From NCBI GenBank assembly GCA_021234155.1, contig JAJEKV010000017.1, positions 5,995,901 to 6,059,900 of the forward strand: 64,000 nt of DNA. Direction: 5' to 3'. Source of the stretch: Isoetes taiwanensis (taxonomy: Eukaryota > Streptophyta > Lycopodiopsida > Isoetales > Isoetaceae). The position numbers and the translations under genes are program-made. This document shows, piece by piece, positions 2,671-50,728 of this stretch; positions within the stretch are counted from its first letter, which is position 1; every line of letters starts with the position of its first letter. The notes below the pieces were generated by a model. It did not search any database, was not told where the DNA came from, and was given only the letters and a program-made list of their open reading frames with translations.

Positions 2671-2741
2671 TAGCGACGGATATCCTATGCCGACGTGGCA
2701 TCAACGGCCTGGATGCGTCCTTCACTCGCGGTGATTCCATC

Positions 2742-3215
2742 CGGTTGATTCACGGTGATGTGATTCTGCCGGACGGAATCAGATTTTGGTGATTCCGCCC
2801 GGAGGAATGGTCAGGATTACGTGATTCCGTCGGCTGGAATCAGATCGTAGTGATTCCGCCGGACGGAATCTAATATAGGTGATTCCGTCGGACGGAATCA
2901 GAATATGGTGATTCCGTCAGACGAAATAACAAGTTAGTGATTCCGTCCGGCGGGATTGCAACTTGGTGATTCCGTGCCGTGGGATCAGTGACGGGTGATT
3001 CCATCCGGCGGTATTCCGTCGTCGTGATTCCATCGCGTGGAATACTTACTTGGTGATTCCGTCAGGCGGGATTGCACCTTGGTGATTCCATCCCGCGTAT
3101 TCCGCCGCTTAGGATTCCATCGCGCGGAATACTTACTTGGTGATTCCGCCCAGCCAGTAGTCTACCGATGTGATTCCACCGACAAGATTGAAATTATTGC
3201 CGCACCGGGCCGCAC
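2742..3215. repeat. Tandem array of ~30-bp units, each a small dyad
   Basis: About 14-15 degenerate units carry the core GGTGATTCCGtcNGgcGGAATC, so most units contain a GATTCC...GGAATC inverted repeat able to fold into a short hairpin. The spacing is about 29-32 bp, with variable filler such as AGATTTT, AATAT or TACTTACTT. Near the right end some units become longer and lose the right arm. The array is GC-rich against AT-rich DNA to its right. It is a minisatellite with internal dyads, and the variable filler is too short and too similar to be CRISPR spacers. Confidence 0.85.
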
Positions 3216-7372: not shown

Positions 7373-7762
7373 TTAGGGCAAAATTGTATTGAAATTTATT
7401 GTCCGTGGTTGAAATAGCATATGTTGTTTGGATAGTTTAGATAATGCCCCTCCGTTTAAGGTACCAGTATTTCTTAGTTTGGAAGAGCAGGATATGAGGT
7501 TGTTGTAGCCATTTTTTGTTGTGTTGTAAAGGTTTATGTAATGTCTTTCGATTTCTTTTGCCTTTTTCTTGCTTTTGGTTTCTTCTAAGAGGTCAATGTG
7601 GAAGTTTTTTCCGTACGGTTTGTGCTTGTCGACGTCTGCTGCCATTTTGAGATTTGATTTTGATTTGTATTGTTTGTACCTAATTGATAAGTTTGTTGTT
7701 TATCCTACGTATTTGTTGTTGTTTTTATTTCACGTTAGGCAATATATCTTTGTTGGTGGCAT
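7373..7762 (-). pseudogene. GIY-YIG endonuclease relic with two in-frame stops
   Basis: One minus-strand frame from an ATG at 7762 to a stop at 7373 (about 130 codons) reads as a GIY-YIG nuclease. It has MPPTKIYCLT at the start (the GIY position is IYC), KYVG about 12 residues later (the YIG position), an Arg in the following helix (SIRYKQY), then FHIDLLEE and the family-typical ending HYINLYNTTKNGYNNL. A TGA after IYCLT and a TAA straight after KYVG interrupt an otherwise clean frame, so it is probably dead. Single-domain GIY-YIG enzymes of this kind occur in homing-type mobile genes, large DNA viruses and some retroelements. The source is not decided here. It is AT-rich like its surroundings. 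Confidence 0.7.
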
Positions 7763-13505: not shown

Positions 13506-13850
13506 ACACCTGTTCCTGCATTTGGGGCAGGTTCGTTAACCTCAATCCAAGCCTTGGCAGGTTGTTTCCATCCGAAGTTCTTCTACTTCTGCAGCATTCC
13601 TTTCTATGCCAGCAACAGAATATATGCCTGACATAAGCACGTAGGCACCAGCATCGTGGGGATCCAACAGCATTATTTGATCAAAGTACCGCATCCCTAA
13701 TTCCACATTCCCATAAGTTCTGCATGATGCAAGTAAGCATGCGCATCCAATAATATCGAAATCTGAAGTAATTCCTCTACTTTGTCCAAATGCCCAGCGC
13801 GTCCAAGAAGATTAAGGTGGAGTCCCCGTCATTGGTGATAGTCAAAATTG
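13506..13850 (-). pseudogene. PPR protein E-domain relic
   Basis: Minus-strand translation gives LLGRAGHLDKVEELL, then in another frame ACLLASCRTYGNVELG, FDQIMLLDPHDAGAYVLMSG and IYSVAGIERNAAEVEEL. This is the standard layout of the last PPR motifs plus the E domain of plant PLS-class PPR proteins, which act in organelle RNA editing. Frame changes are needed between the first and second parts and again near the end, so it is broken. No DYW domain follows. Confidence 0.75.
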
Positions 13851-18159: not shown

Positions 18160-18800
18160 GCAAGGGAGTGTTCCCCGAATGTAGTTACCTATGATGCAGT
18201 AATTGAGGATTGTGCAAGGCTGGGAGGTTACCTGAGGCACATGAGCTACTGAAGGATATGCTAGATGCAGGTATTAAAATTGATGCTTTCACATACACAC
18301 CCTTGATCCATATTCCTTGTAAGACTGATAAAGCTGATGATGCTTACCAATATTTTTGGACAATAATCAAGAACAAGTGCATCCCTCATGTGATTACTTA
18401 CCTTGTCTTGCTAGATGGGCTTTGCCATCAGAAACGATTAAATGATGCTAAGGGCCTTCTACAAACAATGAACGCAACTAATTGCCCCCCAAGTGCAGGT
18501 GTGTATGCCATGCTCATCACTGCCTCCTACAAAGAGAACAGAGCAGATGAAGCTTGGTAATTATTTCAAGAAATGGTTACAAGGGGATTCACTCCTAGTG
18601 TGGCAGTATATAATGCCTGCAGGGCAGCACAAAAGAAGAACATGAAAGATATGCTGGGGTTTCTCGTACCTTGTCTTGTTATATGGGATTCGCCATCAGA
18701 AACGTTTAGATGATGCTAAGGGCCTTCTGCAAACAATGAACACAACTAATTGTCCCCCAAGTGCAAGTGTAAAGAACAGAGCAGATGAAGCTTCGCAATA
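18160..18800 (+). pseudogene. P-class PPR gene relic with internal duplication
   Basis: The translation shows consecutive 35-residue PPR motifs: SPNVVTYDAVIEDCARLG, then after a frame change CKAGRLPEAHELLKDMLDAG, DAFTYTPLIHIPCKTDKADDA, CIPHVITYLVLLDGLCHQKR and PPSAGVYAMLITASYKENRAD. A stop at about 18558 interrupts the next motif, which continues in frame as LFQEMVTRGFTPSVAVYNAC. From 18669 to 18797 a diverged second copy of 18398-18555 follows, with an internal deletion. P-class PPR proteins bind organelle RNA. The frameshift near 18215, the stop and the partial duplication mark this as a dead copy. Confidence 0.8.
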
Positions 18801-20930
18801 ACTTAACGGCAATGCAAGATTGATGCAACGGAAAAGAATAGGACGATTCAGCTTGGAGAAAAAAAAATTGATCCACGTACAGAGAAAATCGCCTTGTTAA
18901 AAAACGAGAATTGTCCTGGTGTAGACATTTGATTAGATACCTACAAGGAGGAGCGTAGATCAGGGTAGCCCTTAAGGACGAAAGTTCGCCAAAAGGCTAT
19001 TTTTTAAAGGTATCGAGAAATTTTGATGCTATGGTTTAGTAGGGCCCGTTATAGATGAAAAAAATAAAATTAGCCAACGTTTCTATAAACAAATCTCACT
19101 CCACTTGAAAATTCGCCACATCCACTAAGCATCATAACTATGGATTCGCCTTATCCTCTACCCTTCTTCTCGAAGATTTCTTAAGGAATCGCCTAATATT
19201 CTAGGCTTTCTTCATAACCTAATCTATTCTCCATATCCATCCAGGTACATATGATAATTTTAAGTACTTCTAAGGATGTACTAGAGAGCATATTTTTAAG
19301 ACCCTCCCTTTTAATAGATTTGTTTTACCTACAAGGATAAGCCACATTCTCATTTGCAAAGGTTAAGTTGTGGCATTGCATCATGCAACTATAGTTATAA
19401 TGTGTTTGTGTCCTTGATTAAATATGGATGTCGGTGAATAAAAATTCACCACAAAAATTGCACTTGAAAAATAAAGACACTTAAATCTTGGCAAAATATT
19501 GGCCATGATTTGCCTAGATTTCTAAAACATTCATGTCTAGAAAACATTCGCCCACATGCCTAATCTTGCAACTCTATTATTCGCCCGACCTTCTAAATTA
19601 TGCTTAGACAAATTTGACCTTAAGGGCAACCCTGGCGTAGATAAAGTTTCATGGAAGAAGCTTTGTATGACAATGGCACAAGTGCAACCATAGCACGCCG
19701 GAAGCAAGCAACCTCAGAAGTCAAATGCGAAAATACGAAAATGTGAAAACCTCACATAAAAGCAGGTATACCTTAGAAAGAAGCCACGCCGAATGAACCT
19801 CCTAGAAATGGAAACGAAGTGACGAAGAAATGGAAACGAAGCTATCCGAACTAGAAAAGGGCAAAGAAAAATACAATCAGTTATTCTTGACCTTAATTTT
19901 TTTTGGGATAATGGAGCCGGAGCAAAAGGCTGGCCTGGGCAGATGCAAAAGCTGCTGAGCGGAACTGCAACAAAACCGCACGATTTGAGAAATTCCTCCC
20001 CTTTTCTGAACCGCTGATGCCTATGAGCCCGACCCATTTGATCTGCAGAAATTATGTTGAGAATTTTCACACCCAGAAGCACCTGTTCAATGCAGCTCCA
20101 TTCAAACATGGCTTGCACTTGTTTCTTTCTTCCATTTGCTATATGCTATAGTACTGTCTTTCTGCAGAGCCAGGCATGGTATTTAGGAGATGGCTTGTGA
20201 GCAATGGAATTGGGCTCGCAAATTATGGATTTGTGAGTAATGGCAGACGGAAGAATCTAAATCCAAATTGATCCTTATCACACACAGAAATTAAATCAGC
20301 GGCCGAGAGTAGGAAACAGATGCACGTTCTGGCAAAAATCCGTGGGGTTATGGCTCTGTGGGTAATGGCAGACGGAAGACTCTAAGATAAATAAAAAAGG
20401 AAAATACGAAAATCAAAAGAGCTTGAAGAAGACGAAGGAGGAAACTGAAGAAGACTAAGAATGTAAGGTTTGCCATGCCGCCTCAATGCGTCGAATGCCA
20501 TCTCCGTGCCATTTTTTAAGGCTTATCTAATTTTCACAGCCCTAGATCTGGAAAAAAGAGGATCTAATGGTGGAAGTTAATGCCACATCAATTTTTTATG
20601 AGGTGGATGTGTTATGTGGATAGGCTAGAATTGCAAGGAGGGCTGCACGCTTGGTTAGGCTGGCGTGCTAAAAAAAAAAAACTTTTCATCAAGACTGTTT
20701 TAATTTGTGTGAACATGAAGCTTTTGGTATTTGACCCCCTTGGATTTGCTATAGCATAACTCACAAGAATGGGAGCCAATAAATTTTTGTGTATTTTTTC
20801 ATGTAAAGCGTGACTGCCATATATGAACTCTTAGAAAGGGCTTGGCTAGTTTTTGTGTTCTTGATTTTATATGATTTTTTTTTGTGAACCTTCAAAATGC
20901 CCTTTAATAGTCTATCATGGGACAGGTCTA
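18801..20930. other. Non-coding stretch
   Basis: Nothing recognisable. A minus-strand frame at 19714-20118 (starting MQAMFEWSCIEQVLLG) is open for 134 codons but ends in a low-complexity Phe/Arg-rich tail and matches no family known to me. A short A-run lies near 20670. Confidence 0.4.
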
Positions 20931-22900
20931 GTATTAATGTTGAATGTAGGGAGTTCAAACACTAAGCTTCGACAAGTCATTGAACCCAAATTGCATCCGC
21001 ATGGAATCAGACGGTATCGTCTTTTTGTAAAAGAAAAGAGAGTCAGCTACATGCGGAGCACCAAAAAGGAATGTTCTACCTCTTGGACCAACATTCGAGG
21101 ACATTCTGGAGAAGAATGTTATACAAACCTTTGCATCCCATAGGAAACATCAGCTCTGGCCAACGGGTACAATATTTGCAATAGCTCTATGATCCTCTTG
21201 GGTTCCAAGCAGAAGTACCCCCATAGATGGGCCAGGTGCTGGAAATAACATAGGCAAAGGTCTGGAGAGGTTGCAACATCTTGCCAATGGCACGGGGCAG
21301 ACTTGCAAGGTATGTAGGCAGAGTTGCTTAGTGCCCATCCTGATGGCATTATTCAATAGGGCATTCGACCATCAAGACAACCTTTCAACAATAGTATTAG
21401 GGTCCGCCGGGGATGCCCAATCTCTGACACTGTTTGGCCTCTATATTGATCAACTAAAAGTGTGGCTTATTGAACACGGGGGTAATGGAGCTCAGTTGGT
21501 GCACCAGATTATCAGGCAGCTCATATACATTGATGATGTGGACTTCTTAACCTACATCTCCTGAAACATGCAATGCCATTTACATGCCCTAAATACTTTC
21601 TGTCGAGCCACTGGGATGTGGGTCAACCTGACTAAAACTAAGTTCTGGCTCGTCTCTTCTTCATGCTAGCACGACTTCCATCATCAAGGAGGATTCACTT
21701 GTGTTATACGTATAAACCATATGAGCATACGCTAAGGGGTTTTTTATTGCCTATTTGATACTTATAATAAGGATTTACCATTTATTTCACTTGTCTAGTT
21801 GTATATATAAGGGCATATCAAGCCAGTTTTCTGCGTATGATAATGGGATTTTGCTTGACCCTAGGAACACAGGTGCCATATCCAAAATACATATAGGTGA
21901 ATCCCCTGGTCCATCATTCACTTATCAGGGGCAAAATGTGGAAGTAGCACCCACCTACAAGTACTTGGATATAGAGTTTGCTACTACCACATACTGAGAT
22001 ACTTCCATTCGGTTACGAGTGACAGCGAGCTAGAAGGCACTGTATGCGATGCAGAACAACAGTTACAAGTAGAGATAAATCAGCGAGCCCATCTGTCACA
22101 CTTGTTTCGGGTGGCGGTGGAACCCATTGTTTTATGAGGGGTTGATTTATATGTGTCATCCTTGCGCAGGGGCCATTCCAATCTTCTTTGTATCGTTCCA
22201 ATTTTATCGGATTCCTTGAAGGACATTTATATGGGGTTGAGGTCTAATGTCCAGTCATATCCTTGGCCAACTAGAAAGACCTAGAGTAGATGCAGAAAGC
22301 CTTTCTCGCTCGGGCACTTGGGGTGAAATCCACTTCCAGAAGGTAGTTAGTATGGGCAATGATCGCCTTCCCAACCTTGCTTATGTTGTGGCTATGGGTC
22401 TGCGGCGCCTCAAGGCCTGTTGCAAAGAGAGACGAGGTCAGTGGTTCTCCACATGGAATGTACAGCAGCACAGGTGCATACAGGTAGAAATTGCGGAGGA
22501 TCATTCACGTATGGCAGTACCGTGATACTTGCTTCCTCGGTCCACAACGCTACCTCCGTACACATTTGCTTATGAAGAAACGGAGATTCGTGGCATCAAT
22601 TTGCACAGGTGCATATCGCCTCTGAATTGAGATAGGCGGATGGGCCCAAAGGGGCCTGAGGATAGGATTTGTTGGTGTTGCGAACAAGGTGCCATTGAGG
22701 ATGATGTCACACTCTTCAGAACTATCTGACGTTCACCCACATCCAAGCCCATCATGATGAGTTGATCTCCTTAACCAGCCACTCCATGTGCTGCTCGGCA
22801 CAACTTCAGTGGGTTTGTTGGGGTCTTATTTCTAGGAGATCATGGATGAGCGCACTCGGCTATGTGTTAGACATTGTATTGCATTGCGTTGAAATTGAAA
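20931..22900 (+). mobile_element. Decayed LINE, reverse-transcriptase region
   Basis: Plus-strand frames show non-LTR retrotransposon reverse transcriptase. Around 21400-21440 a frame-split version of the RxGCP(L/I)S...LFGLYIDQL motif is visible. Then comes LIYIDDVDFL, the catalytic YxDD (21526-21537), followed by HLHALNTFCRATGMWVNLTKTKF. The typical downstream TYQGQNVEVAPTYKYLDIEF occurs at about 21920-21975. Several frameshifts and stops break it (for example after DFLTYIS at 21562). Trailing sequence to about 22.9 kb reads as decayed C-terminal part. No 5' end or target duplication was located. Confidence 0.8.
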
Positions 22901-23840
22901 TGTACCATTAAGTTTCATTGTACATTTTCTTAACATGCCTATTACTGCCAAAGTTTCCCTCCAAAAAATTTCTTCAGGGCGGGGGTTTCTAATCCTGACA
23001 GTAATCTGTTACTGTCCACTTTTTATTGAGTCCCATAGGCCAATATCAGTCATAGCGCAAGAAGAGGCCGTAAAGATCGCCACACCTACCAAGTGTTGCT
23101 CTGTGCGGTCCTGCTTGGTCGATGCAAGTCCGGCACGTGAAAGGGCATGTTGCCGGCACAGTAACCATCTCTCCATGTCGTACAAGACCTGTGCTAATGT
23201 GGCAGGTTGTCCATTATTACCCATGGTGCAAGAGGAGGCTGCTTGAGCAGCAATGGTGACTCTGGGCGGTCGTGCACTACAAACGCGGATCCAGTGCAAG
23301 CAAATGTGGGATTATGACATGGAAACCATATCGGAATATCCTCAGACTGTATCATAGAGCGCCAGAATTTTGCCAATCGCCAATCATAGGATTGTTTTCT
23401 GAGATTTGAAATATCAAATATCTCTATGAATCGTCAGAAATCGAAGAAAGGGCCAATTCTTGAGCTTTATAAAACACCGGGGCAATCGGCAAATGCAACC
23501 CCATGCTGCATGGCATAGATAGTTTGAGTGTGAAGATCTGTTGGCATGTGCAGCCGGAATGATTCAAACTTGAAACTTGAAACCCTACTTGCTTCTACAG
23601 ACAATGCCATAGCCATTTGCTTCTAGGCAACGCAGCCATGGCGACCTCCAAATAAGTTCATGGGGAGCTTTTTGAGATAGCTTTGTCGACAAGCTTGTTG
23701 AGATTGCTTTACCTGGCTATTGCTGGCGCTTTTGCTTTTTGTGTCGGCCAAAGCTGATTGATCTATTGATGAACTGCATAGGCAAAGCAGTAGCGTGATG
23801 CAATCATGGAGCATATCCAATTTCTTTGCGATCTAAAGTC
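22901..23840. other. Unassigned stretch after the LINE
   Basis: Overlapping frames at 22935-23246 (plus) and 23009-23299 (minus) are open but unrecognised. The sequence is GC-richer than average and could be the 3' tail of the LINE or another element. Confidence 0.35.
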
Positions 23841-25450: not shown

Positions 25451-25788
25451 CCATTCACAATTTCCACCTTTGCAATTGTAATCAGAGACCATTTTTTGAA
25501 TTTATGCCACTATGTTTGAGCTCATAATGTGGCCCCGATTAAAAATCGTAGTTTTAGAACTCTAGATTTCTGAAGGTTTGTCGGGGTATTCATATCTAAA
25601 TGCGTATGAAGCTGATGCTGGCATGTGGATTTTGAGAAGAAGTTGCATGTAGTGCTTGCGAAAACTCAGATAAGATCCCGCGTGCGCCCTAGGCATATAG
25701 CAAGCAGCCAAGGCCTTTCTAAATCCGTTCCCTGCAGGTGTCGGCATGGCCATGAAGCGGATGGACAGGCCCTTTTTACATATTTGTT

Positions 25789-26904
25789 GTGCTCGGTGGT
25801 TCTTCAAACAGGTGGGCGCCTCCCTCCTTGTGTCTTATTTTTGTACTTGCAAGAAAGGGGAGGGGTGCAAGAGCCCATGCCCCCATCCCGGCTGTTGGTG
25901 CGATGCCTGCCATATCTACTAGTGCACAGATGCATCCTATCCGACATGTTGCTGCCATGCCTGGCACATCTAGCTCTGGACAGACCCAAGAACCTCCTGC
26001 CATGCCCAATTCCTCCATGAGTTGGAGGGTAATTGACGTGTCTGTCACATTAGGTCTGTCAGGCCCGGACGTGCCCCTTAGTTTCTATGAAGCCTTATCA
26101 TCCTTTTATGATAGAAGATGCATAGCAGAGGCTGTTGCCTTGGAGAGGGACTCGTCTGCAGATCACTTACATGTCCAAAGTATTTTGAGAGCACGTTATA
26201 AAACTCCCAAGACAATCAATGAAGCTATCAAGAGACTTCAACTAGCTATGTAAGCCAGCTGGTGTTGTTTTGGTCTGTAAGATGCCTAAGAATACGAGGA
26301 TCCACTGCTTTGAAGGGATGGTGCGCTACTGTATGAAGGATATCAGAAAGGGGCATTATTCATGTCATCTGCATAATGTGACTGATTCCATGATAGAAAA
26401 GGATAAGGACCTCTACTTGTGGTGGTGTGCTGGAGATACCAAGGGCCTCTGTGTTCTTGACAATTGCAACCTCTTGAATAAGGCAGCGCATTTTGTTTGC
26501 TATCATGGGGGACTCCGCGTCACACCGAGTCTGAATTTCACTTTGGCTAGAATGGTTAGAAGTGGCAAGTATATCATGTCCAGCAGCTGGATAATCCCTT
26601 CTAACACAGCCCACGTCAGTGAACACAGGGTCCGTGCATTCTGGAGGGTTCTCCTCAATCCTGCTCGTTGCATGCCATCAGATATCCGAACAATCCTATA
26701 TGGCCTGCCAGCTGGCTATGTGCCAGTTCAGAGAATGGGTCTGGCAGATGGGGGTACTGGTATCACTCGGTCCCTGCTGATGAGTCTGATGAGAATTTCC
26801 ATGACCTGTGTGACCCTAGGTTCAGCCCTGAGCTTGTCATATCCGACCATGATGTTGATTACATTCCAGTCTACACAGGAGATCGCACCATGGTTGTTAG
26901 CTAG
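25789..26904 (+). pseudogene. HUH (Rep-like) endonuclease of a mobile element, frameshifted
   Basis: Three conserved HUH-nuclease motifs appear in order. Motif I is a hydrophobic strand with a Thr, VIDVSVTLGL (from a Met at 26017). Motif II is HLHVQ at 26164-26178, with the metal-binding His-hydrophobic-His. Motif III is RYCMKD with the nucleophilic Tyr at 26327 and Lys at 26336. The single Tyr and YxxKD spacing fit Rep-type or Replitron-type enzymes, not Helitrons, which use two Tyr and a longer protein. A large C-terminal domain follows (SYHLHN-like segment, LNKAAHF, LARMVRSGKY, SSWIIPS, RAFWRVLLNPARCMPSDI). The N-terminal part has an Ala/Pro/Ser-rich leader. A frameshift lies between 26243 and 26254 (the first frame stops at 26251) and another near 26720-26750, after which DLCDPRFSPELVISDHD continues to 26904. 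This copy is therefore inactive. The enzyme would nick and join single-stranded DNA to mobilise the element. Confidence 0.75.
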
Positions 26905-26969
26905 GTCGGTTAGATGTTTCGTGTTTGTACAGTTTCCTTTATATATTGCTTATCTCGTGCAGATTTGAA

Positions 26970-27380
26970 ATGGAAGTGGATGCGAATGCCGAAGATGGTG
27001 CAGGCCATCCTGTCCTCCTCATAGATTCTTCCATCATCAGTTCTAGCATTGATGCCTCCCATCCAGATGCGCAGGCCTACCCACCGGAGCTTGAGGAGAC
27101 GTTCTGTGCTGAGGAGTTTGTTAGGCAGCTGGTTCAGATTGGTGCAGAAATACATAGGATGGCAGCTTCAATGCGCATTCTCAGGTGCCAACTCCGCAGA
27201 TTCTACTTGGCAATTGACACTGCGATGAGCAGTGTTGCGTGGGAGCGTCTCTGAGTGGCCACATCTGAGCTTCATACTCTTAGGCCCCAAATGAGCCTTG
27301 CAAGAGCGCTTCTCTCACAAGAGATCTGGCAATTGGATATCGTCATAAGGCAGGCTCGCTCTGGAGAGCTACGCAACTAG
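26970..27380 (+). pseudogene. Second ORF of the HUH element, acidic and helical, unknown
   Basis: From a Met at 26970 the frame reads MEVDANAEDGAGHPVLL..., then a run of predicted helix (FVRQLVQIGAEIHRMAASM, RRFYLAIDTAMSSVAWERL). A TGA at 27252-27254 interrupts it, but the same frame stays open and protein-like to a TAG at 27378 (ATSELHTLRPQM, QEIWQLDIVIRQARSGEL). It directly follows the HUH gene on the same strand, so it is probably the element's second product or its C-terminal exon. It looks like a coiled-coil. Role unknown. Confidence 0.5.
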
Positions 27381-27544
27381 CTTCATATGTTCATGGTTAT
27401 GTCCTCTTGCTTTCGTGTGGTGTTCTTCCTTTGTGCTGTTATTGTGATGGCGAACAAGCCACCTCTATACTTGTCATTCCATCAATGTATATACGACGTG
27501 TTTGTGCTGTAAAAAAAAGAGCGGATGTGGTTAATTTGCTTCAT

Positions 27545-27622
27545 TTGTCGTGTTGTATTCATGTGATGTTGTGTTGTGTTCATGTGTTGTTGTATTGTAT
27601 TCATGTGTTGTTGTGTTGTGCA
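27545..27622. repeat. GT-rich short tandem repeat
   Basis: Units of the type TTGTGTTGTATTCATGTG repeat three times with small changes, just 3' of the HUH-element ORFs. Confidence 0.75.
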
Positions 27623-27678
27623 GGTTGGAGTGTGGCTGAATATTGCTCCAACCCATGGTGTTGGGGCGCCCCTATTAA

Positions 27679-27699
27679 ATGGGGTCAATTTGACCCCAT
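27679..27699. other. Perfect 10-bp-arm hairpin 3' of the HUH element
   Basis: The arms ATGGGGTCAA and TTGACCCCAT flank a single T. The left arm also overlaps a second small dyad (CCCCTATTAAATGGGG at 27670-27685). Hairpins near the 3' end are used as recognition structures by several HUH transposon groups, so this could mark the element terminus. No boundary was proven. Confidence 0.55.
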
Positions 27700-27759
27700 G
27701 CTGACTCGTCGCAGAAGGTTGGGATCTTCCGGGCCAGCATATTCCACACAAGATGCTGT

Positions 27760-28920
27760 CATCTAACGGCCACCAAGCTATAACACACACACTAAGCTAT
27801 AATACACACCAAGCTGTATGTTTGAGCTCATACATGAACACACTGAGAAATATGTGCATGATGAAGAAGACAAATTGTTCGTCAAGCACATTATCTAATA
27901 AAATAAATGACAATTCTAACAAAAATAAACAAAATAGAATGATAATATATGCAATTTATTGTGATAGGTGTCCTCGGCACCAATGCTATCTTAATATTGC
28001 CTTTGTTTCTTTACTTGTTACTTATGAAACTAAATACTAAATATTGTGTTTCGTTGAAGCACAAAACGTTTTATTATGCAATAGAAATGAGATGTTATGG
28101 TCTCCAAACATGTACATTGGTTGTGCTCAACGTGGATCATTACCTCAGATGTATTTTTATTCAATTAACCACTTGGTTTCTACAATGCATCTTATAAGAT
28201 GGCATATAGCATAACATAGTATATTGCTTGTATGCATCTTACGAGATCATTTAAAAATGTAGCTCATCTTGACAAACAACACACAGTAAAACATTCACAA
28301 TGTTCACAATGTGTTAAATAAATCTTCTGTGGAAATACCAAATGTTACAATGTTTCTTAAATAATCTTCTAACTAATATATGCAAAAAAGTAGGTACTTA
28401 CTCATAACCGGACACTGATTTTCCTAGATGTTAGATTGCACACCGATTGCTTAATCTTTCTTCCCAGGGATCAAAAATGAAATAAAATTTGGAGCAGTGA
28501 TTGACTTCACTGCATACGGGGTGGCAAAAAAAGAGAAATGTTTGCGGCTTCCGTGATAAATTTCTTATAACCCTAAACATAGACCTTGGGATAGTTCTTC
28601 CATACAGCTTTCCAACATTCCTACCACAAAACTAATGCAAAATTCCATTGGAACATGGACAGAGAGAGCATAAAAGAAAGTGCAGCCAGGTCAAAGATAA
28701 TCAGACCTAGCTCTGCTACAAAGTTGTTACAACCAATGCCTTTATTAAAAGTGTCAAATACACAACATATGCAAAGCTAGCATATGCAGAACATAGCAGC
28801 TTCAACCCATATTTTACATAACTATTGGAGATCAAATATTTATTACAACCGCCTGAACTGCCACGGTAGCCTCCCACATTGAAATTAAAGAATGGTGATC
28901 TACAATGTCCAAAATTGACG
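27760..28920. other. Non-coding stretch, includes likely SCD2 3' flank
   Basis: No gene was recognised. Short AC-rich repeats (ACACACACTAAGCTATAATACACACCAAGCT) occur at 27780-27815. The right-hand part lies downstream of the SCD2 stop codon and should hold its 3' UTR. Confidence 0.4.
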
Positions 28921-48289: not shown

Positions 48290-49130
48290 ACAGATGAATC
48301 ACAGCATCTATAAAACCCTCCTATGCAAGGCCTTTGAGTTCCATTTTTTCAAAAGCTTCAAAGGCCTCATTGCCCAATCCATACTGAACAAAGGTACCAA
48401 GCAGAGCAGTCCACAAGCATAAATCCTGTTCGCCAATGCTAAAAGCTGAGCTTGCATCTTCCAAGCTCCCACATTTGGATGTTTACCAATAGAACCTGGG
48501 TAGAAACATCCAAACCAGCATCTATTATTGCTTTGTGTATCTTCTTACCAAAATGAGTTCTGCGCCTTGCACATGCACCAAGAAGGCTAATAAAACTGGC
48601 TTCATCGGGCTTCATACCATCTTGTTGCATTTGATAAAACAGTTAAAGAGCATCCATGAATTTCCTTCCCATGCTTCCCATGTCCTGCTATTATGGTACC
48701 CATGATATTATATTCCCTTCATTCATTTGCCCAAAAACTGCAGTTGCCTTTTTGATAGCCCCATTCTGAGTATGTGCAAAGATCATGGCATTCCACGAGG
48801 TTTACATTCTTGTTGGGCACTTGAAAAAGTTTCCTGCATAGCCAGAGAGTAGTGCATTTCAGGAGGAAACATTGCGAACAGGCATTTTCTAAACAAGTTG
48901 ATAAGCATCCTTTCTGGCAATACGCTGCAAAAATTGTAGTCCACGAGATTACATCTGGTTGGGGGATCTGTAAGATAAGTTGAACAGACTGGTTAAGCTT
49001 ACCAGATTGACGCATAAGCTGCAATTTTAGTGTTCCATAACACTGCATTTCGGTAAGGCATTCGTTGAAAGAGACGAAAGGCAACTTCAATTTTCCTAGG
49101 GGAATATCATGCTTGCCCAAATTTGTTTAC
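48290..49130 (-). pseudogene. PLS-class PPR gene relic
   Basis: Minus-strand pieces match plant PLS-type PPR proteins: PDVISWTTIFAAYCQKG at about 48940, VPNKNVNLVE and a frame-split AYAQNGA segment at 48780-48820, LFYQMQQDGMKPDEASFISLL with GACARRRTHFGKKIHKAIID at 48500-48640, and LWTALLGTFVQYGLGNEAFEAFEKM at 48340-48420. Several frame changes and stops break it. The motif order is kept, so it is a decayed copy in place rather than shuffled. There is no C-terminal E or DYW part. Confidence 0.8.
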
Positions 49131-49192
49131 CTGGAATATCATGCTTAAAAGCATGTTAGAAGCATGACATTCTAGGATACCAAATTTCGCCT

Positions 49193-49555
49193 GTCCATCC
49201 TATCAAACAAAGATCTCGCTTTTTACAAATCTCCACATGTTCCATACATCTGAATCAGGAGATTACATAGAAATAAGTTCCGGCCCAATCCACTACACTA
49301 TTTTTATTATTACCTTCCATGCATTTGCAACATTTTTTGTCTGTGCTAACGCCCGAAGTGAAAAGGATAACCTGCATCTAGAAGCAAGCTTGAAGGTAAT
49401 ATGGTCGAGAGACATGGAGAAACACATTAATCTAAAAGGCTTTTGCCTTATCCATCTACATCCTGCAATCGTTTCAATCTTCAATCTGTGCTTGTTTTGT
49501 TCCGTGACAGTTTTAGAATTTGTATATAAGTAATAAAAATAAGTGGATTTGAACA
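49193..49555. repeat. Segmental repeat copy 1 beside tRNA-Ala
   Basis: The block starting at about CCATCCTATCAAACAAAGATC recurs at 50106-50446 with about 85-90% identity (CCATCCTATCAAATAAAGATC). Both carry GTTCCATACATCTGAAT, AGGAGATTACATAGAAATAAG, CTGCATCTAGAAGCAAGC and AATCTAAAAGGCTTT. Both run into a tRNA-Ala-like sequence on the right. Confidence 0.85.
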
Positions 49556-49557
49556 TT

Positions 49558-49630
49558 GGGGATGTAGCTCAGATGGTAGAGCGCTCGCTTAGCATGCGAG
49601 AGGTACGGGGATCGATACCCCGCATCTCCA
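49558..49630 (+). tRNA. tRNA-Ala (anticodon AGC)
   Basis: A 73-base cloverleaf folds fully. The acceptor stem GGGGATG/CATCTCC includes the G3-U70 wobble that alanyl-tRNA synthetase requires. The D stem is GCTC/GAGC, the anticodon stem CTCGC/GCGAG with anticodon AGC at 49591-49593, and the T stem CGGGG/CCCCG with loop ATCGATA. No CCA is encoded and there is no intron. A box (TAGCTCAGATGG) and B box (GGATCGATACC) are present. The 3' flank lacks an immediate T-run; the last 14 bases plus flank are repeated in tandem. It is the only copy of five here that keeps all stems. Confidence 0.95.
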
Positions 49631-49735
49631 AGTTTTCTATTCATTTTTGTAAATACCCCGCATCTCCAAGTTTTCTATTCATTTTTGTAAATACCCCGCA
49701 TCTCCAAGTTTTCTATTCATTTTTGTAAATATCCT
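49617..49735 (+). repeat. Three tandem 38-bp copies of the tRNA-Ala 3' end plus flank
   Basis: The unit TACCCCGCATCTCCAAGTTT plus TCTATTCATTTTTGTAAA is present three times in a row. Its first copy is the 3' end of the functional tRNA-Ala gene. The copies are essentially identical, so the expansion is recent. Confidence 0.9.
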
Positions 49736-49813
49736 AGGTCTTGCTGGTTTCTTCTATCTTTTGTTGTTTCCGATGATTTCCAGCTTGTTTGATATTAGGC
49801 CATTTCTATGTTT

Positions 49814-49886
49814 GGGGATGTAGGTTAAATGGTGGAGCGCTCGCTTAGCATATGAGAGGTACAAGGATCGATACCTTGCATCTCTA
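49814..49886 (+). pseudogene. tRNA-Ala pseudogene
   Basis: 73 bases aligned end to end with the tRNA-Ala at 49558 but with changes that break the D stem (GGTTAAATGGTGGAGC), one anticodon-stem pair (GCATATGAG) and T-stem positions (CAAGG...CCTTG, compensated). The AGC anticodon is kept. It is preceded by GGCATTTCTATGTTTG, which is also found before the other copies. Confidence 0.85.
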
Positions 49887-50077
49887 AGTTTTCTATTCAC
49901 TTTGTAAATATCCTAGGTCTTGCTGGTTTCTTCTTGTCTTGTGTATGCCTTGCTGGTTTCTTCTTGTCTTGTGTATGCCTTGCTGGTCCCTTGTATTTGT
50001 GTATGCTATCTTTTGGTGTTTCCCATGATTACCTGTTGAGCAATTATATTGGAAACAATTAGGGCATTTCTTTGTTT

Positions 50078-50105
50078 GGGAATGTAGCTCGGATGGTAGA
50101 GCACC
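50078..50105 (+). pseudogene. tRNA-Ala 5' half, truncated
   Basis: GGGAATGTAGCTCGGATGGTAGAGCACC matches the first 28 bases of tRNA-Ala, then switches abruptly to the segmental repeat at about 50106. Confidence 0.8.
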
Positions 50106-50446
50106 TATCCATCCTATCAAATAAAGATCTTGCTTTTTACAAATCTCCACGTGTTCCATACATCTGAATTAGGAGATTACATAGAAATAAGCGTCGACGC
50201 AATCCATTACACTAATATTATTACCTTCCATGCATTTGCAACATTGTTTGTCTGTTCTAACGCCGAAATGAAAAAGGATAAACTGCATCTAGAAGCAAGC
50301 TCAAAGGTACTATGGTTGAGAGGCACGAAGAAACAAATTATGCACATTAATCTAAAAGGCTTTCGCCTTATCCATCTACATCCTGCAATCATAGAGAATA
50401 CGATTTCATATCATCTAATAAGCTTCAATCTATGCATTTCAACATT
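50106..50446. repeat. Segmental repeat copy 2
   Basis: The partner of 49193-49555, about 85-90% identical, ending next to a tRNA-Ala-like sequence as copy 1 does. It starts within a truncated tRNA-Ala, which suggests the repeat and tRNA moved together. Confidence 0.85.
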
Positions 50447-50520
50447 GGGGATGTACCTTAGATGGTAGAACGCTTGCTTAACATGCGATAGCTATGGGGA
50501 CCAATACCTTGCACTCTCCA
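50447..50520 (+). pseudogene. tRNA-Ala-derived pseudogene
   Basis: Begins GGGGATGTACCTTAGATGG and ends ACCTTGCACTCTCCA. The anticodon position reads AAC, one base is inserted in the 3' half and the D and T stems are damaged. The following AGTTTTCTATTCATTTTGTAAA flank is the same as after the intact tRNA. Confidence 0.8.
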
Positions 50521-50680
50521 AGTTTTCTATTCATTTTGTAAATATCTTAGGTCTTGCTAGTTTCTTCTTGTCTTATGTATGGTTCCTTCTTGTGTTTGTG
50601 TATGTTATCTTTTCTTGTTTTCCATGTTTTCCAGCCTGTTGGGCAATTATATGGAAAACAATTAGGGCATTTCTATGTTT

Positions 50681-50728
50681 GGGAATGTAGCTCAGATGGT
50701 AGAGCGTGCTCAATTCACGCCCGCTTCC
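50681..50728 (+). pseudogene. tRNA-Ala-derived fragment
   Basis: GGGAATGTAGCTCAGATGGT then AGAGCG matches the 5' half; the remainder diverges (CTCAATTCACGCCCGCTTCC), loosely like the 5' half of another tRNA arm. The upstream flank (CAATTAGGGCATTTCTATGT) is shared with other copies. Confidence 0.75.

Follow-up and report, generated by a model that had tools for sequence, protein, structure and literature searches.

A decayed member of a multicopy Replitron family with two selected reading frames in the nuclear genome of the lycophyte Isoetes taiwanensis

Identity and Extent of the Element

What kind of mobile element carries a broken Rep-like HUH endonuclease gene in the genome of the lycophyte Isoetes taiwanensis, where does that element begin and end, and which of its parts have been kept by selection? 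The gene lies in a window of 64,000 nucleotides (contig JAJEKV010000017.1, positions 5,995,901 to 6,059,900; assembly GCA_021234155.1), to which all coordinates below refer. A sequence-only reading had placed it at 25789..26904, in plant nuclear DNA. The nuclear setting is upheld, and matches to PPR proteins at 18207-18557 and 13545-13811 fit a land plant. The limits proved too small: homology to 39 related copies places the whole element (~2.29 kb, + strand) at 25524..27815, the 3′ limit being set from terminal units, with the likely N-terminal part of open reading frame 1 (ORF1) upstream and damaged. We are highly confident that this lycophyte nuclear genome contains a multicopy Replitron family, of which window positions 25524 to ~27815 are a dead copy.

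The family encodes a Replitron HUH endonuclease domain with one tyrosine. Its copies have ends in common (5′ ATAATGTGG; 3′ a palindrome and repeated units finishing in ATAAT), and selection has preserved two reading frames. The window copy itself is dead, as the sequence-only reading had held: ORF1 has two frame changes and has probably lost its start region, and ORF2 contains one internal stop.

Replitrons are little studied eukaryotic HUH transposons. A plant copy had been put forward as a possible new lineage; the Replitron kind stands, and the novelty of a plant copy as such does not, because a review already reports Replitrons from lycophytes (PMC10741241). Thus, the family is new and the kind is known. 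Less commonplace are ORF2, the splice-like sites, and the 13-32 bp repeats that flank two independent insertions. A literature search, with most subscription literature outside its scope, yielded no mention of either this family or a second Replitron ORF. With dozens of copies whose ends are defined, a copy that is open in both frames, and a second protein that is conserved, the family makes concrete questions testable: the cut site of the nuclease, the role of ORF2, and the palindrome as the end of the copied strand.

Copies in the Genome

Relatives with shared ends occur elsewhere in the genome. With window positions 25600-27700 as the query against 1,658,258,908 bases in 1,110 contigs, at least 66 match rows were obtained for the family (a lower bound, as 40 of 676 first-look candidates were scored), and 39 copies were fetched with flanks for comparison. 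Homology among them begins at 25506-25532 where the 5′ end is reached and stops by 27809; coverage is zero copies at 25500 and 20 copies at 25550. The nine copies measured end to end span 2,167-2,806 bp.

A tree of the 33 sequences having a suitable stretch (window included) has a median terminal branch of 0.05, and the nearest relatives of the window copy are 91% identical to it; most copies are therefore old. The fetched copies are mostly old and broken. The expectation that active relatives should exist is thus borne out in part: in copy L038, ORF1 is open over 363 codons and ORF2 is open as well, but the 5′ terminus of this copy was not recognised, and for this reason we do not call it a complete element.

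Two copies (L020 and L024) share a contig, with ~8 kb between their starts; they are 95% identical and their flanks differ, making short-range movement possible. A repeat at 22230-23042, upstream of the window element, recurs with unchanged relative orientation upstream of Replitron copies at two other loci (L009 and L017) and adjoins a rearranged Replitron copy at a third (L041).

ORF1 and the HUH Endonuclease Domain

ORF1 (25903..26904, + strand) encodes the Replitron transposase, an HUH endonuclease. The three motifs reported previously are present in the order given and with a single tyrosine, spread over two reading frames. The frame 25756-26250 holds VIDVSVTLGL and HLHVQ, and the frame 26246-26968 holds YCMKD. 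Scored singly against the Pfam model Replitron_HUH (PF21859; curated cut-off 28.5 bits), these frames reach 20.0 and 21.6 bits, both below the cut-off; read through as one broken protein, ORF1 scores 48.1 bits (E 1.8e-12), which makes the motif match more than chance. Related copies score 65.5 bits (L038) and 57.2 bits (L020). Because a curated model matches, the Replitron name rests on more than the motif. Replitron_C (PF21860; cut-off 27 bits) is placed in the right order at 16.9-18.9 bits (single frame 18.9; window read-through 17.9), below its cut-off.

The HUH endonuclease domain extends over 26044..26398 (+ strand) and is supported by Pfam, alignment and fold, with the HLH motif at ~26164-26172 and the catalytic tyrosine at ~26327-26329. 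Only one YCMKD motif is present, and its Tyr, Lys and Asp are invariant in 10 of 10 aligned proteins; together with the PF21859 match, this supports a single-tyrosine nuclease of the Replitron kind. A cysteine-rich stretch in another frame (within 25701-25919) was considered as a zinc-binding domain and rejected, there being no Pfam match.

Helitrons use HUH-type rolling-circle chemistry, and so a Helitron or Helitron-derived fragment, from a rolling-circle element whose Rep has two tyrosines and a helicase fused to it, has to be weighed here. Both the shared chemistry and the palindrome close to the 3′ end would suit such an origin. Helitrons, however, have 5′ TC and 3′ CTRR ends, two tyrosines, and a RepHel protein with a helicase domain, whereas this family has a lone tyrosine motif, ends of ATAATGTGG and ATAAT units, and a best family match to Replitron_HUH. 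In agreement with the sequence-only reading, Pfam detects no helicase family when the open ORF1 frame of L038 (363 codons) and the frame of L020 are scanned. A Helitron is therefore extremely improbable.

The predicted fold raises a second alternative, an endogenous CRESS-DNA virus or plasmid remnant with a geminivirus-like or circovirus-like Rep. Predicted with nine outside relatives, the HUH domain has a predicted local distance difference test (pLDDT) score of 78.4 (a fold from the single sequence was poor, pLDDT 34.9, and was set aside), and its seven best solved-structure matches are all circovirus and nanovirus Rep nucleases (circovirus 7kij and 6wdz; nanovirus 6h8o), viral proteins that share this fold at 11-14% identity. 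Full-length CRESS viral Rep has a helicase part; a CRESS-DNA virus carries Rep with an SF3 helicase, and a capsid gene. Pfam scans detect no capsid or helicase family in ORF1 or ORF2, the sequence family is Replitron, and numerous copies that have both ends in common, together with two ORFs under selection, indicate a transposon, which leaves a viral or plasmid origin very unlikely. Both the Helitron and the CRESS-virus readings were thus rejected, on the lack of a helicase family, the lack of a second tyrosine motif, and the end sequence.

Protein searches using window sequences alone recovered no relatives, whereas a profile built from the copies did, in a search that scored the 7,997 candidates with most words in common. 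Single-protein scans of viral contigs and genome contigs gave no relatives, and PDB sequence searches gave nothing useful.

ORF2 and Evidence of Selection

Downstream of ORF1, ORF2 (26970..27380, + strand) comprises 136 codons plus a stop in its own frame, and the related copies support this second ORF, which the sequence-only reading had noted. Relative to L038 (copies with 150 or fewer comparable sites excluded), divergence at codon positions 1, 2 and 3 is 0.116, 0.118 and 0.295 for ORF1 (37 copies) and 0.128, 0.130 and 0.314 for ORF2 (36 copies); relative to the window copy, ORF2 gives 0.137, 0.091 and 0.290 (36 copies). Codons with a single change relative to L038 are likewise in excess for synonymous changes, with synonymous:nonsynonymous counts of 2,256:1,424 in ORF1 and 990:587 in ORF2, against a neutral expectation of ~2.6 nonsynonymous per synonymous change. 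Divergence values and codon counts are non-independent, because the copies have common ancestry.

Noncoding controls, taken relative to the window copy, have no third-position excess, either on the 5′ side (0.161, 0.217, 0.201; 13 copies) or on the 3′ side (0.192, 0.219, 0.197; 18 copies). The 65-nt spacer between the ORFs (0.096, 0.213, 0.168; 25 copies) and a variable 3′ stretch (0.112, 0.081, 0.148; nine copies) are uneven, as short or thinly covered stretches can be. The signal is weaker in the closest copies (L039, L036 and L043), with synonymous:nonsynonymous counts of 42:44, 45:49 and 42:46 in ORF1 and 5:16, 15:14 and 14:15 in ORF2, respectively. This places selection on the longer shared history, with recent copies decaying, as expected for transposons.

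Purifying selection on ORF2 across 36 copies argues for a real second gene or exon. No Pfam domain was found in the ORF2 protein, which looks mostly helical, judged from its residues; its most likely role is that of a partner to the transposition machine, or of a C-terminal piece of that machine which is made separately.

Splice-Like Sites and the Status of ORF2

The spacer preceding ORF2 (26905..26969, + strand) is pyrimidine-rich and carries a splice-acceptor-like AG right before the ORF2 start, in 34 of 38 aligned sequences. This raises the alternative that ORF2 is a second transposase exon joined by splicing at this AG, an arrangement compatible with a Replitron. A protein of the fern Adiantum capillus-veneris (GOP47_0007014; P0005) lends it some support. 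It carries PF21859 and PF21860, and its identity to the query is 33%, across 52% of the query length; it differs from the window element in being a single annotated protein with a C-terminal extension rather than two ORFs, and in lacking the N-terminal part of the HUH domain that carries the HLH motif. The extension stands in the same order as ORF2 and has weak similarity to it (hhalign E 0.23). For five copies, the number of shuffles per 1000 that reach the ORF2/fern score is 13, 3, 356, 5 and 225 in end-free global mode, and 65, 21, 239, 48 and 19 in local mode; overall, the resemblance is suggestive and not significant, and BLASTP of ORF2 against the fern protein is not significant either.

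Other observations speak against splicing. The acceptor-like AG is not special by conservation alone, because many adjacent columns are equally kept. Inspection by eye showed a separate ATG for ORF2 in 31 of 38 aligned sequences, no donor at the ORF1 end in phase with ORF2, and no combination of splice-like sites that yields an in-frame ORF1-ORF2 fusion. On balance, the exon arrangement is a real possibility, at somewhat less than even chances.

A candidate short first coding exon (25746..25811, + strand; MAMKRM...FFKQ) is followed by a donor-like site at 25812, with the GT present in 11 of 13 aligned sequences. Its divergence at codon positions 1, 2 and 3 is 0.099, 0.188 and 0.259 (17 copies), values to be read with the caveat that an equally short noncoding spacer is also uneven.

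Termini, Palindrome, and Flanking Repeats

The 5′ terminus ATAATGTGG lies at 25524..25532 (+ strand), and the copies have this sequence or a near variant of it; counted by eye, 18 of 20 printed copies show ATAAT or TAAT at this position. Toward the 3′ end, a short palindrome GGGGCGCCCC (27663..27672) precedes the main 21-nt palindrome ATGGGGTCAATTTGACCCCAT (27679..27699), ~115 nt before the element's end. The hairpin-capable palindrome noted earlier near the 3′ end is supported by related copies: of 40 sequences, 17 carry its 17-nt core GGGGTCAATTTGACCCC unchanged and 9 more carry it with 1-3 changes; it could not be located in 12 others, and the remaining 2 lack the 3′ region. The hairpin forms in the predicted fold of the 156-nt window 3′ region, although the fold of that region as a whole is barely better than that of shuffled sequences (z -1.65; 9 of 200 shuffles equal or surpass it). 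After the palindrome come repeated units of the type AAAAACGATAAT, of which those at 27773..27815 (+ strand) finish in ATAAC, in ATAAT, and in a partial third unit. By eye, 25 of 40 sequences have ATAAT within the 3′ end as printed; at either terminus, it may be target rather than element sequence. At locus L036 (~900-1040), a diverged Replitron 3′ end is joined head-to-tail to a 5′ end through one ATAAT, which fits insertion at, or joining through, ATAAT.

By analogy with the HUH family, the tyrosine would nick one strand at an ATAAT end and stay covalently attached to the 5′ side, and the element would move by copy-and-paste through a single-stranded or rolling-circle intermediate, with the 3′ palindrome marking or ending the copied strand. 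Rejoining of the strand at ATAAT would leave ATAAT on both ends.

The window copy is bounded by direct repeats, the left one (25511..25526, + strand) consisting of 13-16 bp, TATGTTTGAGCTC plus an ATA in common with the element end, and matching the right one at 27817..27832 (+ strand). Flanks were compared for the 21 sequences with a recognised 5′ end, by an approach to which very short duplications are invisible. The longest flank match is 5-8 bp in 18 of the 21, the same as in mismatched flank pairs, and long in three: 16 bp in the window, 32 bp in L011, and 20 bp in L012. The last two are counted as one event, because their flanks are common to both. Among 1,560 mismatched control pairs, two reach at least 13 bp (20 and 32 bp), presumably L011-L012 cross pairs; in a preceding comparison of wider scope, 13 bp is reached by 7 of 462 mismatched pairs. 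The 15-bp match between the flanks of L036 arises because its left flank is a Replitron end. Neither long-repeat event finishes on an ATAAT unit: the end of the window copy falls within the partial third unit, and that of L011 and L012 falls near 27665. We read the 13-32 bp flanking repeats, known from two cases only, as a side route of repair.

Taken together, these features could describe a two-gene Replitron lineage, in which the ORF1 nuclease is accompanied by a separately translated, selected ORF2 protein, produced from a transcript that is alternatively spliced via the acceptor-like site, and in which some insertions are completed in an error-prone way, with target repeats of 13-32 bp as the result where the 3′ end is off an ATAAT unit. 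We offer this combined scheme tentatively, and think it rather doubtful as a whole.

As described in a review (PMC10741241) and in Pfam (PF21859 and PF21860), Replitrons (Craig, 2023, PNAS e2301424120) share with this family a one-tyrosine HUH domain with no helicase found, short direct terminal repeats (5-11 bp), a size of 2-3 kb, a nonseed plant host, and a multicopy state; the copy lengths given above fall within the Replitron range of 0.9-4 kb. Replitrons are described as having target duplications of 2-8 bp; here, the 5-8 bp flank matches are like those of mismatched pairs, and the remaining three sequences have 16-32 bp. The family differs in its C-terminal domain below the Pfam cut-off, its second conserved ORF, and its long flanking repeats at two insertions.

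Other Features of the Window

Elsewhere in the window, a 108-codon ORF on the - strand (7376-7699) matches a GIY-YIG endonuclease at 24.7 bits, above the cut-off of 22.6. Of the PPR gene pieces, the one at 18207-18557 is a strong match, 13545-13811 holds an E motif, and 48442-49126 gives weak matches below the cut-off. A GRAS domain match on the - strand (19717-20145) scores 26.9 bits, slightly under its cut-off of 27, and a U6 small nuclear RNA match (22125-22223, - strand) scores 66.1 bits. Local duplications at 49190-50705 contain a tRNA-Ala gene and decayed tRNA copies, and an array of ~29-bp repeats rich in GTGATTCC occupies 2731-3155.
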